Shown here piece after piece: positions 1 through 5,007 of a stretch of DNA of 5,007 nucleotides. Position 1 is the first letter of the stretch. The number at the start of each line of letters is the position of its first letter. Source of the stretch: Oscillospiraceae bacterium. GTDB lineage: Bacteria > Bacillota_A > Clostridia > Oscillospirales > JAAYXM01. The notes under the pieces were generated by a model. That model did not search any database and was not told the origin of the DNA. It saw only the letters and a list, made by a program, of their open reading frames with translations. The stretch spans positions 1 through 5,007 of the forward strand of contig JAFQVE010000428.1 in the NCBI GenBank assembly GCA_017408185.1, read 5' to 3'. A program made the position numbers and the translations under genes.

Positions 1-704
1 AGGGTTACACCAATGGTCAGGATAGTCAGGTCGGAACCTTCCTTCTTCACATCCGGCTCACCAATCGGAATTTCGTAGTACTCAGCCGGTACACCCTCTT
101 CGCCGTGGAACTGCTCGCCCAGTGCGTACAGAGACTGGCTCTCCAGGTAGATAACCGGGTCGGTTCCTGCCATAGCTGCATTCAGAAGACCCTTTGCATC
201 ATACGGAGTTGTCGGGAATACACACTTGAGACCCGGAACATGAGCGATCATCGAAGACCAGTCCTGAGAATGCTGTGCGCCATACTTGGAGCCAACAGAA
301 ATACGGAGAACAACAGGCATCTTGAGGATACCTGCGCTCATTGACTGCCACTTTGCAAGCTGGTTGAAAATTTCGTCGCCTGCACGTCCGAGGAAGTCAC
401 AGTACATAAGCTCAACGATTGCACGACCACCGCTCATTGCGTAACCTACAGCACTACCGACGATAGCAGCTTCGGAAATCGGTGAGTTGAAGAAACGGTG
501 ATACGGGAGTGCTTCTGTGAGACCGCGATAAACAGCGAATGCGCCGCCCCAATCGCGGTTATCTTCACCGTATGCAACGAGAGTCGGATCTTCATAGAAT
601 TTATCGATAATAGCTTCGAAAAGACCGTCGCGGAGCTGATAAACCTTGTTCTTTGAAACAGGCTTGCCGGATGCATCGAATCCAAAGCGTTCTTTCTTTG
701 CAAT
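1..704 (-). CDS. 2-oxo acid dehydrogenase E1 beta part, directly after an in-frame TAG; C-terminus beyond window
   Basis: Transketolase-like beta half of E1, which forms the TPP active site with the alpha half. There are 234 visible codons from 704 down to 3, open at the left edge; a full beta unit is about 325 residues. Numbering from the codon after the TAG, the conserved signatures are: [13 protein letters not shown] (44-56); [17 protein letters not shown] (74-90), whose Glu78 matches the Glu that activates the TPP aminopyrimidine; [10 protein letters not shown] (103-112); YGAQHSQ (141-147), with a conserved active-site His145; and [18 protein letters not shown] (157-174). The sequence continues the alpha frame exactly. 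Codons 704 to 438 contain no ATG, GTG or TTG; the first ATG (437-435, residue 90) comes after the catalytic Glu and cannot be the start. The body of the gene looks intact, with no other stop or frameshift. It is either the second half of an interrupted fused E1 or, less likely, a separate gene using an AUU start. Confidence 0.88.
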
Positions 705-707
705 CTA
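705..707 (-). other. In-frame amber codon (TAG) between E1 alpha and E1 beta coding sequence
   Basis: Reading the minus strand, the alpha part ends AAC CCG AGA GTT CAG, then TAG, then ATT GCA AAG AAA GAA. Both sides are in the same frame, and the codons after the TAG are E1 beta sequence. There is no spacer, no ATG and no AGGAG-like element here; the nearest purine run is GAGAG inside the alpha end. E2 and E3 both end in TAA, so this is the only TAG in the reading frame of any gene in the window. A single substitution (for example from GAG, AAG, CAG, TGG or TAC) would restore one open frame of at least 689 codons. Confidence 0.9.
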
Positions 708-2069
708 CTGAACTCTCGGGTTATCCTTTTTCGGCATAAGGACATCAGGTTCGCGATCTTCCATCTTTTCAATCTTAAGATTTGAGAACATAAGACGTTC
801 GATCATATCCGGATTCTTCTGGAGATCCATACGCGGAGATACACTTTCGTCAACAGCAAGAGCACAGGAACGTGTGATGAGACTCTTGACATCATCGAGA
901 ATTGCATCAAACTCAGCAGCTTCTGCAACCTTTGCATCGATGAGCTTTTTGCTGTATGCTTTGAGGACATCCTGCTCGATCCATGCATCAATCTCTTCCT
1001 GTGTACGATAGCTGGAAGCATCGGACGGAGAGTGACCTGTTACGCGATATGTAAGAACATCGAGGAGAACCGGACCGTCGCCGTTCTCGAGGATTTCCTT
1101 CTTTCTCTTCATTGCATCGATAACTGCAAGCGGATTATAACCGTCTACGCGCTCTGCATGCATCTGTGTCGGGCTGAAACCTGCGCCGAGACGTGCCGGC
1201 ATACCGTATGCCATTGTTTCACCAAAGGTCTGACCACCCATACCATACATATTGTCAAAGATGTTGAAGAGTACAGGAAGACCGCTGTTGTGGCTTTCAT
1301 CCCAAAGTTGACGGATCTGATCCATACCTGCCATATTGAGAGCCTCGAGAACAGGACCGCAACCGAGAGATGCATCACCGATATTACATACAACAATGCC
1401 CTTCTTGTTGTTGACCTTCTTATAAAGTGAGCTACCGAGTGCGATTGTACCGGAACCACCGACGATAGCGTTGTTCGGGTAGATACCGAACGGAGTGAAG
1501 AATGCGTGCATGGAACCACCAAGACCGCGGTTAAATCCTGTTGTGCGCGCAAAGATTTCAGCAAGTGCACCGTATACGAGAAAGTCGATAGCAAGTGCCT
1601 TTACATTGGACTTATCGTTCTGCTTTCCTTCGACTACGCGAAGAATGTCGCCGCCGAAGAAGTCTGCCATAATCTTATAGAGCTCGTCATCGGAGAGCTT
1701 CTGAATGCAGGAGAGACCCTTTGCGAGGATTTCGCCGTGGCTTCTGTGCGAACCGAATATATAGTCATCAACGCCAAGAATATATGCCTGACCTACAGCT
1801 GAAGCTTCCTGACCTGTTGAAAGGTGAGCCGGGCCCGGGTTAGAATAGTCAACACCATTATAATGGTTTGTTGTCTTGATCTGATAGAGCATTGTTTCAA
1901 ACTCACGGATGATTGCCATATCGCGATAGATGCGCATAAAATCGTCCTTAGAGTAGTTCTTGCTCTCTTCCTGAATTGTTTTGTTATACTGGTTTACCGG
2001 GATATCCTGGAATGTAATAAAACTGCTTTTTCTTACTTCATTCGGATCTAAGAATTGTGACTTAGGCAT
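705..2069 (-). CDS. 2-oxo acid dehydrogenase E1 alpha part (thiamine-diphosphate dependent), probably the N-terminal half of a fused E1
   Basis: Decarboxylates the 2-oxo acid on thiamine diphosphate (TPP) and acylates the E2 lipoyl group. The frame gives 454 residues, longer than the usual 320-400 for a separate alpha subunit. Visible motifs are: PGPAHLSTGQEA (78-89); GSHRSHGEILAKG (106-118), the His-containing active-site loop; GLGGSMH (182-188); the TPP/Mg motif beginning IGDAS (230-234) and ending FDNMYGM (271-277); and the loop RVTGHSPSDASSYRT (342-356), equivalent to the regulatory phosphorylation loop of mitochondrial E1 alpha. Roughly 45-50 extra residues lie between the HG loop and GGSMH. 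The ATG at 2069 has a good Shine-Dalgarno at 2079-2084. The frame ends at TAG (705-707), and E1 beta follows in the same frame with no usable start, so the natural product may be one alpha-beta polypeptide of roughly 800 residues. Pyruvate is the probable substrate (pdhA-like), but this is not proven. Confidence 0.93.
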   Translation of the reverse strand: MPKSQFLDPNEVRKSSFITFQDIPVNQYNKTIQEESKNYSKDDFMRIYRDMAIIREFETMLYQIKTTNHYNGVDYSNPGPAHLSTGQEASAVGQAYILGVDDYIFGSHRSHGEILAKGLSCIQKLSDDELYKIMADFFGGDILRVVEGKQNDKSNVKALAIDFLVYGALAEIFARTTGFNRGLGGSMHAFFTPFGIYPNNAIVGGSGTIALGSSLYKKVNNKKGIVVCNIGDASLGCGPVLEALNMAGMDQIRQLWDESHNSGLPVLFNIFDNMYGMGGQTFGETMAYGMPARLGAGFSPTQMHAERVDGYNPLAVIDAMKRKKEILENGDGPVLLDVLTYRVTGHSPSDASSYRTQEEIDAWIEQDVLKAYSKKLIDAKVAEAAEFDAILDDVKSLITRSCALAVDESVSPRMDLQKNPDMIERLMFSNLKIEKMEDREPDVLMPKKDNPRVQ

Positions 2070-2078
2070 TTTATTTCT

Positions 2079-2084
2079 CTCCTT
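2079..2084 (-). promoter_or_regulatory. Ribosome binding site of the E1 gene
   Basis: AAGGAG (within AAAAGGAGAG) on the minus strand lies 9 nt before the ATG at 2069, in the 18-nt gap after the E3 stop. It supports the E1 alpha start. It also shows what a normal site looks like in this operon; nothing comparable precedes E1 beta. Confidence 0.85.
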
Positions 2085-2087
2085 TTC

Positions 2088-3449
2088 TTATTTCATCTTA
2101 AAGATTGCTTCACGTACTATTTCACAGACTGTCGGATGCGGGAATACAAATTCCTTAACGTCGTTGATTCTCATCTCGCATTCAACCATCATTGCTGCCG
2201 AGAATATGATTTCGGAAGAATATGTACCGAGCATATGAACACCGATAATCTTGCCTGTCTTCTCGTCTGCGAGAACCTTGCAGATACCATCGTATTCTGT
2301 ATTCTCTGCCATATAACGACCGCTGTACATCATGCTGACAGTAGACTTCTTATAAGCGATTCCCTTTGCCTTTGCTGTTTCTTCAGTCTCACCGACAGAA
2401 GCAACTTCAGGATTTGTATAGATAACGGCAGGAATTGCATTGTAGCGCATACGATCGCGTTTTCCGACCATATGGTTGATTGCAACTTCAGCTTCGCGGT
2501 ATGCAGTGTGAGCAAGCATGCTCTTGCCATTGACATCGCCGGCAGCATATACGCCCGGAACGTTTGTTCTGCAGAAATCGTCTGTTACAATTGCGCCGCG
2601 GTTGAGCTCAACGCCGATTGTTTCAAGTCCGATACCTGCCGTGTGTGCACGACGTCCAATAGAAACGAGCACTTTATCAACTTTAAGAGATACGCTCTTA
2701 CCGTCCTTCTCGTATTCAACGGTATCTGCACCGAAGCCTGTTACCTTTGCCCCAAGCTCAAATGTGATACCCTTGCTTGTATAATTCTTGAGAAGAATCT
2801 CGGAAATTTCGTTATCTGTCGGACCTGCAATCTTCGGCATCATTTCAATAACGGTTACTTTGCTTCCGATTGAATTGAAGTACGAAGCCATCTCGAGCCC
2901 GATAACACCGCCGCCGATAACTGCAAGAGATTCGGGAACCTCTTCCATATCGAGGATTTCGCGGTTTGTCATACCAAAGCCTGAAGCGATTGCTTCTTTG
3001 AGCCCCGGAATCGGCGGAACAACTGCATTTGAGCCTGTTGCAACAAGAAGTTTCTTACCGGAAACAACTTCATCTCCGGCCTTTACATCAAATCCTTCGC
3101 TCTTTCCGATGATTGTTCCGTCTGCTTCGATAACCTTGACTTTGCCGGCACGAAGAGCTGCTGCAATACCTGCAACAAGCTTACTACGAACATCATTCTT
3201 ACGTGCAACGACTGCCTTGTGATCAATCTTGATATCACTTGCTGTTACTCCGAACTTATCGCCGTGAACAGTGTGATCATAGATTTTTGCGGAATTTAAG
3301 AATGTTTTTGTGGGGATGCAACCTTCATTGAGGCAGACACCGCCGAGGAAGCGCTTTTCAACGAGACATACGCTCATACCTTCGGCTGCTGCGCGCTCTG
3401 CTGCAAGATAACCTGCAGGGCCGCCGCCCAATACTACCAAATCATACAT
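2088..3449 (-). CDS. lpdA: Dihydrolipoamide dehydrogenase (E3)
   Basis: FAD-dependent disulfide oxidoreductase that reoxidises the dihydrolipoyl groups of E2 and reduces NAD+ to NADH. It is complete at 453 residues, close to the usual 450-475, with no added lipoyl domain. Visible motifs are: the FAD-binding GGGPAG (8-13); the redox-active disulfide Cys39/Cys44 in GGVCLNEGCIPTK; ATGS (137-140); the NAD-binding GGGVIGLE (179-186), with Glu202 after the second strand favouring NAD+ over NADP+; the second FAD motif AAGDVNG with Asp305; and the C-terminal His438/Glu443 pair in HPTVCE, which is the catalytic base pair. The ATG at 3449 is supported by AAAGGAG at 3459-3465, and the protein starts directly at the FAD strand as expected. 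It stops with TAA, 18 nt before E1. Its place between E2 and E1 ties it to this complex rather than to the glycine cleavage system, although E3 may be shared. Confidence 0.97.
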   Translation of the reverse strand: MYDLVVLGGGPAGYLAAERAAAEGMSVCLVEKRFLGGVCLNEGCIPTKTFLNSAKIYDHTVHGDKFGVTASDIKIDHKAVVARKNDVRSKLVAGIAAALRAGKVKVIEADGTIIGKSEGFDVKAGDEVVSGKKLLVATGSNAVVPPIPGLKEAIASGFGMTNREILDMEEVPESLAVIGGGVIGLEMASYFNSIGSKVTVIEMMPKIAGPTDNEISEILLKNYTSKGITFELGAKVTGFGADTVEYEKDGKSVSLKVDKVLVSIGRRAHTAGIGLETIGVELNRGAIVTDDFCRTNVPGVYAAGDVNGKSMLAHTAYREAEVAINHMVGKRDRMRYNAIPAVIYTNPEVASVGETEETAKAKGIAYKKSTVSMMYSGRYMAENTEYDGICKVLADEKTGKIIGVHMLGTYSSEIIFSAAMMVECEMRINDVKEFVFPHPTVCEIVREAIFKMK

Positions 3450-3458
3450 TGACGTTTT

Positions 3459-3465
3459 CTCCTTT
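3459..3465 (-). promoter_or_regulatory. Ribosome binding site of the E3 gene
   Basis: AAAGGAG on the minus strand lies 9 nt before the ATG at 3449, inside the 21-nt gap after the E2 stop. It fixes the E3 start, and with so short a gap it also argues for one transcript and possible translational coupling. Confidence 0.85.
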
Positions 3466-3470
3466 CAGAA

Positions 3471-5007
3471 TTATACACCGAGAAGCAAATCAAAGTTTTC
3501 AAGTGCTTCGCATAGTTCTTTAAGGAACTTAGCAGCAGGAGCACCGTCAACTGCTCTGTGGTCGAATGTGAGTGAAAGTCCCATTGCCTGGTATGTTGAA
3601 ATCTCGCCGTTCTTCTCGCGAATCTTCGTTTCTGTTCCGCAAACACCGAGGATTGCTGTCTGCGGCGGATTGATAACAGGAGTGAAGCTCTCGATTCCGA
3701 GGCTTCCGAGGTTCGTGATTGTGAACGATGCACCCTTGAGAAGATCAGGGCTGCAAGCACCGTCACGGCACATACCTGTCACGCGCTTGGATTCACTAGA
3801 GATTTCCTTGAGCGACATCTTGTTTGCATTGAATACTGTCGGAACCATAAGTCCGCGTGCAGTATCGCAAGCGACACCGAGGTGTACGTTGTTGAAAAGT
3901 CTCATCTTATTGTCGATAAGGTGAGCGTTGATATCTCTGTGTTTGAGGATGATGCGTGATACTGCATAGAGAATCATATCGTTGAGCGTTACCTTCTCCA
4001 TACCGAAGGCTTCGCCTTTTGCCTTAAGTACCTTGCGGTAGTTGAGGATTGCTGTTGCATCAAAGGATGTATTGAGAGTGAGCTGAGCCATCTCTGTGAG
4101 TGATGCAGACATAGATTTTGCGATGACCTTTCTGATGTTTGTCATCGGAACTTCTTCATAATCTGCAACCGGAGCCGCAACTTCTGCAGGTGCTGCCGGA
4201 GCTGCTGCAGATGCACTTCCTGCTGCTGCGATATCTGCAGTTGTTACTCTGCCGCCGATACCTGTGCCGACAATGCCCTTGCCGAGTGCTTCAGCTGCTG
4301 CAGGAGTTACAACCTTGCCTTCTGAAATGAGGCGCTCAACATCACGCTCGATAATTCTGCCGTTGGGGCCTGTGGGTATTGCGAGAGAAATATCAGCAAA
4401 TGTTTTCTCTGCAAGATTTTTTGCACGGGGAGAAATCTTAAGAGCATCCCCTGCCTTTGCTGTTGAAACAACAGCTGCCGGAGCTGCTGCAACCGGAGCT
4501 GCAGATGCAACGGGTGCGACCTCTGCAGGTGCAGCAGTTGCGTTCGGATTGAATGCTTCTGCATTTGCGCCGTCTTCGCCGATTACACAAACGTTGAGGA
4601 GGCATTCTACATCGTCGCCCTCTTCAAAGAAGATTGCAAGCATCTTGCCTGATACCTTTGAAACTTCATCAAAGCTTGCTTTATCTGTTTCATAGGAGAA
4701 AAGTGTGTCGCCTTCGGCTACCGTATCACCGACTTTTTTGTGCCACTTAGAGATGATACAGCTTTCAACTGACTGTCCCTGACGCGGCATAATTACCGGG
4801 GTTGCATTTCCTGCATCAACAGGTGCTGCCGGGTTTGCCGGAGCAGCCGATGCCGCCGGTGCAGCTGCAACCGGTGCTGCAGGAGCTGCTTCAGCGACAG
4901 CTGCGCCTGCCGGTGCAAACTCTGCTGTGCTCTCTCCCTCATTACCTATTACGCAAACATTGAGGAGACATTCTACATCGTCGCCCTCTTCGTAGAAAAC
5001 TGCAAGC
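3471..5007 (-). CDS. Dihydrolipoamide acyltransferase (E2) of a 2-oxo acid dehydrogenase complex, N-terminus cut by window edge
   Basis: E2 core of the complex: lipoyl arms carry the acyl group from E1 to the catalytic domain, which transfers it to CoA. The frame is open from the right edge to TAA at 3471-3473, giving 511 visible residues (numbered from codon 5006-5004). In order these are: the end of a first lipoyl domain (1-24); an Ala/Pro linker (about 28-68); a complete second lipoyl domain (about 70-146) with the lipoylation motif ETDKAS, Lys109; a second Ala/Pro linker; a peripheral subunit-binding domain (189-226, SPRAKNLAEK ... GPNGRIIERDV); a shorter copy-like segment (233-259); a third linker; and the catalytic domain (about 283-511) with NPPQTAILGV and the active-site motif DHRAVDGA (His483, Asp487). 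The ATG at 4790 lies inside the second lipoyl domain and is not the start; the true start is beyond 5007. It is the first visible gene of the operon, 21 nt before E3. The family is certain. Pyruvate is the likeliest substrate, but acetoin or branched-chain 2-oxo acids cannot be excluded. Confidence 0.95.
   Translation of the reverse strand, partial: LAVFYEEGDDVECLLNVCVIGNEGESTAEFAPAGAAVAEAAPAAPVAAAPAASAAPANPAAPVDAGNATPVIMPRQGQSVESCIISKWHKKVGDTVAEGDTLFSYETDKASFDEVSKVSGKMLAIFFEEGDDVECLLNVCVIGEDGANAEAFNPNATAAPAEVAPVASAAPVAAAPAAVVSTAKAGDALKISPRAKNLAEKTFADISLAIPTGPNGRIIERDVERLISEGKVVTPAAAEALGKGIVGTGIGGRVTTADIAAAGSASAAAPAAPAEVAAPVADYEEVPMTNIRKVIAKSMSASLTEMAQLTLNTSFDATAILNYRKVLKAKGEAFGMEKVTLNDMILYAVSRIILKHRDINAHLIDNKMRLFNNVHLGVACDTARGLMVPTVFNANKMSLKEISSESKRVTGMCRDGACSPDLLKGASFTITNLGSLGIESFTPVINPPQTAILGVCGTETKIREKNGEISTYQAMGLSLTFDHRAVDGAPAAKFLKELCEALENFDLLLGV
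4230..4442 (-). other. Peripheral subunit-binding domain of E2 followed by a shortened copy-like segment
   Basis: Residues 189-226 of E2 (4329-4442) are a canonical subunit-binding domain that docks E3 and/or E1: ISPRAKNLAEK, then TGPNGRIIERDV. Residues 233-259 (4230-4310) repeat the pattern in reduced form: VTPAAAEALGKG, then GTGIGGRVTTADI, lacking roughly eight residues of the middle loop. The first is firm. Calling the second a relic or minimal second domain is inference from pattern similarity. Confidence 0.65.
4582..4641 (-). repeat. Lipoyl-domain direct repeat, copy 2 (end of second lipoyl domain)
   Basis: This encodes FFEEGDDVECLLNVCVIG, the C-terminal half of the second lipoyl domain. 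It differs from copy 1 at 7 of 60 bases, three of which are scattered and mostly silent, and four clustered near the FYEE/FFEE end. It reflects internal duplication of the lipoyl domain plus linker within E2, a common way these proteins gain arms. Confidence 0.85.
4948..5007 (-). repeat. Lipoyl-domain direct repeat, copy 1 (end of first lipoyl domain)
   Basis: This encodes FYEEGDDVECLLNVCVIG and its flank, the C-terminal half of the first lipoyl domain. By eye it matches 4582-4641 at 53 of 60 bases without gaps, at a spacing of 366 nt (122 codons). The copy is cut by the window edge, so the repeat unit probably extends further right. Confidence 0.85.

Follow-up and report, generated by a model that had tools for sequence, protein, structure and literature searches.

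The locus considered here raises the question of whether a TAG codon lying within the reading frame of a metabolic gene is translated, separates two genes, or is simply damage to an ordinary gene, arising either in the organism or in its assembled sequence. The window, by which we mean the whole 5,007-nucleotide stretch of metagenome contig that was analysed, carries on its minus strand, in the order E2, E3, E1, the operon of a 2-oxoacid dehydrogenase complex acting on pyruvate or a branched-chain substrate. The lipoyl-bearing acyltransferase E2 (3471..5006; PF00198, PF00364 and PF02817) is open at the window edge and ends in TAA, as does the dihydrolipoyl dehydrogenase E3 (2088..3449), and E1 runs from 2069 to the edge. 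The E3 match (TIGR01350) passes its curated NCBIfam cut-off whereas those of E1 and E2 fall below theirs, and for this reason both kinds of substrate are given as candidates.

The alpha half of the E1 gene (708..2069) consists of 454 codons from an ATG and matches PF00676 (1.2e-42). The TAG follows at 705..707, and beyond it the same frame continues for 234 stop-free codons to the window edge, a run with a chance probability of ~1.3e-5 at 3/64 stops per codon; the single in-frame TAG reported in the preliminary description of this DNA is thus confirmed. The part after the TAG matches the PDH E1 beta model NF006667 with an E-value of 4.5e-48 and 163.8 bits, the curated cut-off being 321. As this match starts at codon 23 after the TAG, the first 22 codons were regarded as a linker. 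Alpha (PF00676) and beta (PF02779) share one frame with the TAG between them, and PF02780 would fall outside the window. The linker and the beginning of E1 beta (codons 456-628) occupy 186..704, and a continuation of E1 beta from a different lineage, described below, occupies 1..185 (codons 629-689).

A TAG in this position could mark the end of an alpha gene, with beta re-initiating immediately at the adjoining codon, which is ATT. The first ATG, GTG or TTG past the TAG is codon 90 (437-435), downstream of Glu78 of the PISEA motif, which we take to be the catalytic glutamate; on this point the preliminary description was accurate. It was also correct in finding no Shine-Dalgarno sequence at beta: pairing energies calculated with what we assume to be the letters of the 16S tail were -3.3 kcal/mol upstream of the codon that adjoins the TAG and -5.5 upstream of the ATG at codon 90, the corresponding values being -8.9 at E1 alpha and -9.0 at E3. 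ATT start codons are very rare, and the bases of the ATT region correspond to coding sequence in relatives. A beta start at the adjoining ATT was rejected because of the weak 16S pairing, and we regard a split gene as most improbable.

Relatives were then used to establish what normally occupies this place. A scan of genome contigs yielded 40 related loci, 34 of which read past the alpha end, the fragments L034, L036 and L037 and the distant loci L038-L040 being omitted. The codon at the TAG place was readable in 33 of the 34 (L027 ends short of it) and was a sense codon in every case, CAG or CAA in 8, GAA or GAG in 7 and AAG in 18, in a set that is partly non-independent, as L010 and L011 come from one MAG. 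The first in-frame stop lay at codon 821-828 in 31 of the 34 loci, and the remaining three reach the end of their contigs. Likewise, all 226 proteins of at least 800 aa taken from database search listings have a residue at 455 (Q in 174, K in 36, R in 12, S in 3 and A in 1), and the fused E1 proteins were 816-826 aa long in 119 of the 120 matches listed, the other being 696 aa. With the 454-residue alpha as query, the matches listed included 120 shorter proteins, all of them at most 73% identical, and therefore no short product of this species was among the matches listed; scoring in that search was limited to the 7999 candidates with the most words in common, and the 90% clusters may hide close copies. 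The fused-type gene that had been proposed from the letters of the window holds up well, since the homologs whose alignment had been suggested as a check are themselves fused. As judged from these alignments, the gene appears to be an ordinary fused E1 alpha-beta gene, of ~824 codons in relatives.

The closest relative, L001, is the MAG RGIG3186 from goat rectum, which matches the window at 99.2% over 4873 bases. Across 186-3182 (2997 bases) the two differ only at the TAG base, L001 reading CAG, and the T of the TAG is absent from all of L001-L005. The TAG is a private C-to-T single-base difference that turns the CAG of Gln455 into a stop codon. The alpha half is 100% identical in protein to L001 and to the protein P0004, and codons 456-628, which belong to the same lineage, are identical to P0004 at 145/145 and 28/28 residues. 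As the CAG-reading relative shares all 519 bases past the TAG, no recoding element has arisen there. Across 3183-5007, L001 differs from the window at nine more bases and has a gap of 18 bases in the E2 linker, opposite 4842-4859 of the window. At eight of those nine differences the window base is present in at least one of L002-L005, and at 3184, a second private base, it is in none of the five sequences aligned with the window (L001-L005).

We put at about 0.92 the probability that this is an ordinary fused E1 gene whose TAG is undecoded and represents either a consensus or assembly error or a null allele. The gene would belong to an uncultured gut Oscillospiraceae species, one contig of which has TAG for CAG at Gln455. 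Were the TAG real, translation would be expected to end after the 454 residues of the alpha part, so that the beta half would be missing and the enzyme dead.

The competing proposal, that the TAG is decoded as Gln by a suppressor tRNA or through reassignment so that both alpha alone and alpha-beta are made, accords with a TAG that is in frame and with the Gln present at 455 in most relatives. Decoding was judged in parts of the genomes of four relatives, G001-G004 (one near-identical relative and three kin), in place of the source genome, with samples of 1.01 Mb for G001 (~37% of 2.7 Mb) and 0.48 Mb for G004. The gene for RF1 (prfA) was over the cut-off in all four, intact in three and TAG-interrupted in G004, and TAG served as a normal terminator, ending 87 of 607 ORFs in the G001 sample and 59 of 349 in that of G004 (14-17%). 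No CUA tRNA was found by pattern in the four genomes or by ARAGORN among 34 tRNAs of G001 and 28 of G004, sets that are incomplete (the 34 of G001 include none for Gln, Asn or Ile, and the tRNAs of G002 and G003 were read in part). The CUA pattern matches in G001 and G004 proved to be tRNA-Leu(CAG), and the one in G002 was no tRNA according to ARAGORN. For PylS, none of the four relatives reached the cut-off, there being weak matches only.

Coding frames interrupted by a stop were sporadic in these relatives, with two TAG and one probable TAA in ~1.5 Mb. One TAG-interrupted frame was in the G001 sample (L059, minus strand, offset 10041), a large gene, presumably lyase-like; at the place of its TAG, E, K, S or Q is found in eight paralogous matches within that genome. 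The other, in the G004 sample, was prfA (L044, L118), whose in-frame TAG corresponds to a CAG in its three sisters. The TAA is inside a probable MBOAT gene of G004 (L116, minus strand, offset 19041): MBOAT is matched by the sequence downstream of the TAA, and the sequence upstream of it we take, by resemblance, to be of the same protein. L116 was retained for its MBOAT match despite failing the best-of-six-frames test. Three further TAA rows (L054 and L148 in G001, L134 in G004) were assigned on visual inspection to normal genes that start 14-20 codons further on. Several frames with no start codon nearby were dropped, L097, L120 and L131 of G004 because they failed the best-of-six-frames test and many in the set 'other' on the first screen; these are presumed shadow frames. 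In the ABC-domain matches, TAG was found in 0 of 97, and TAA in one weak match that fell short of the cut-off.

Counting the window, three of the four interrupted frames have TAG, two of them at a CAG of relatives (the second being the prfA of G004), as a TAG read as Gln would predict. However, CAG is by far the commonest codon one C-to-T change from a stop, with 3931 in the G001 sample versus 938 CAA and 695 CGA. The prfA of G004 was dropped as support for recoding, given the CAG of its sisters and the proportion of G004 ORFs that end in TAG, and its TAG was attributed to error or to sporadic mutation. Reassignment of TAG was rejected on the gene ends, interrupted frames, tRNAs, RF1 and PylS of the close relatives; judging from them, decoding is probably absent in the source organism as well. 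Decoding of the TAG as Gln is in our view very unlikely. We give as little credence as to re-initiation at the ATT to a variant in which some strains of the clade carry a low-level Gln amber suppressor, so that sporadic CAG-to-TAG changes (as in E1 and prfA) are tolerated at the cost of less full-length product. Of the alternatives offered in the preliminary description, then, a nonsense mutation or sequencing error is now favoured and a decoded TAG is not; the idea of controlled readthrough was not upheld, the position of the codon having been all that spoke for it. A decoded TAG, if true, would be notable, as the bacterial code changes known before one survey all reassigned UGA, according to that survey, which itself inferred 290 bacterial stop codons to be read as amino acids, as candidates with errors among them (PMC8629427).

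The ordinary fused gene lies on a contig that is not of one lineage throughout, a point that had not been noticed previously. Residues 1-628 are identical to P0004 at 627 of 627 positions, 455 excluded, but over residues 629-689 (window 1-185) the agreement with the P0004 lineage drops to 45/61 (74%), versus 56/61 (92%) with P0243-type proteins, and the head of P0243 (residues 1-628) is just 56% identical to the window. Eight window residues in 633-688, including one insertion, are absent from all 120 close proteins listed. In a control drawn from the search listings, in which the 226 proteins are a non-random sample, 167 had a head neighbour of at least 90% identity, and among these the maximum gain in identity for the tail from any other protein was 0.07 versus 0.18 for the window. 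The contig of L001 stops ~55 bases past the switch. Donor DNA for 1-185 was not found in 391 genomes of G001's class: 38 of them gave matches, the top one by E-value reaching 75% identity and one 58-base piece 79%, and the second lineage is represented by protein sequences alone. In the window one fused-E1 lineage gives way to another at ~185; it is a mosaic, and the contig is unreliable. A mis-join is the simplest reading, and natural recombination between lineages could also have produced it.

The mosaic bears on how the TAG of the ordinary fused gene came about. We rate slightly better than even the possibility that the TAG is an error of consensus or assembly, the contig being mis-joined at ~185 as well, in view of a head wholly identical to P0004 that is attached to a tail from so different a lineage, with a tail gain beyond any in the control. 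The interrupted prfA of G004, in a genome where TAG also ends part of the sampled ORFs, likewise suggests that errors occur in such MAGs. Against this, good depth should make consensus errors at a single base rare, the TAG lies 520 bases from the join, and recombination might equally yield the mosaic, no donor DNA having been found. The other possibility, which we think less likely than not, is a true nonsense allele, in which the strain would have lost E1, and hence the complex, by the C-to-T change, with neighbouring genes undecayed so far. The sharing of window bases with L002-L005 is what natural polymorphism gives, and stop-interrupted coding frames occur in the related MAGs too; conversely, there is no second damage, the 2997 bases round the stop being otherwise those of L001, and the contig is mosaic nearby. 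An error seems somewhat likelier than a null allele. In either case the locus counsels caution, in that the apparent decoding of a stop on a metagenome contig was no longer supported once close relatives were read, and the contig itself proved to be mosaic.

In the crAss-like phages that use code 15, in which TAG is read as Gln according to PMC9523058, the likeness to the window is a TAG where most relatives have Gln; unlike in those phages, a single codon of one bacterial gene is concerned, and TAG ends genes in the close relatives. The alpha and beta parts of the two-subunit E1 enzymes (PDB 1w85/3duf and 1um9) are homologous to those of the window, but the relatives of the window encode E1 in a single frame and the window has no beta start. 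The closest counterparts are the fused E1 alpha-beta proteins (PF00676-PF02779-PF02780), named in databases 'dehydrogenase', '2-oxoisovalerate dehydrogenase E1 component' or 'alpha-ketoacid dehydrogenase subunit alpha/beta', whose domains, as far as the window extends, occur in it in the same order, and from which it differs in its one in-frame TAG and in the foreign-looking tail from residue 629.
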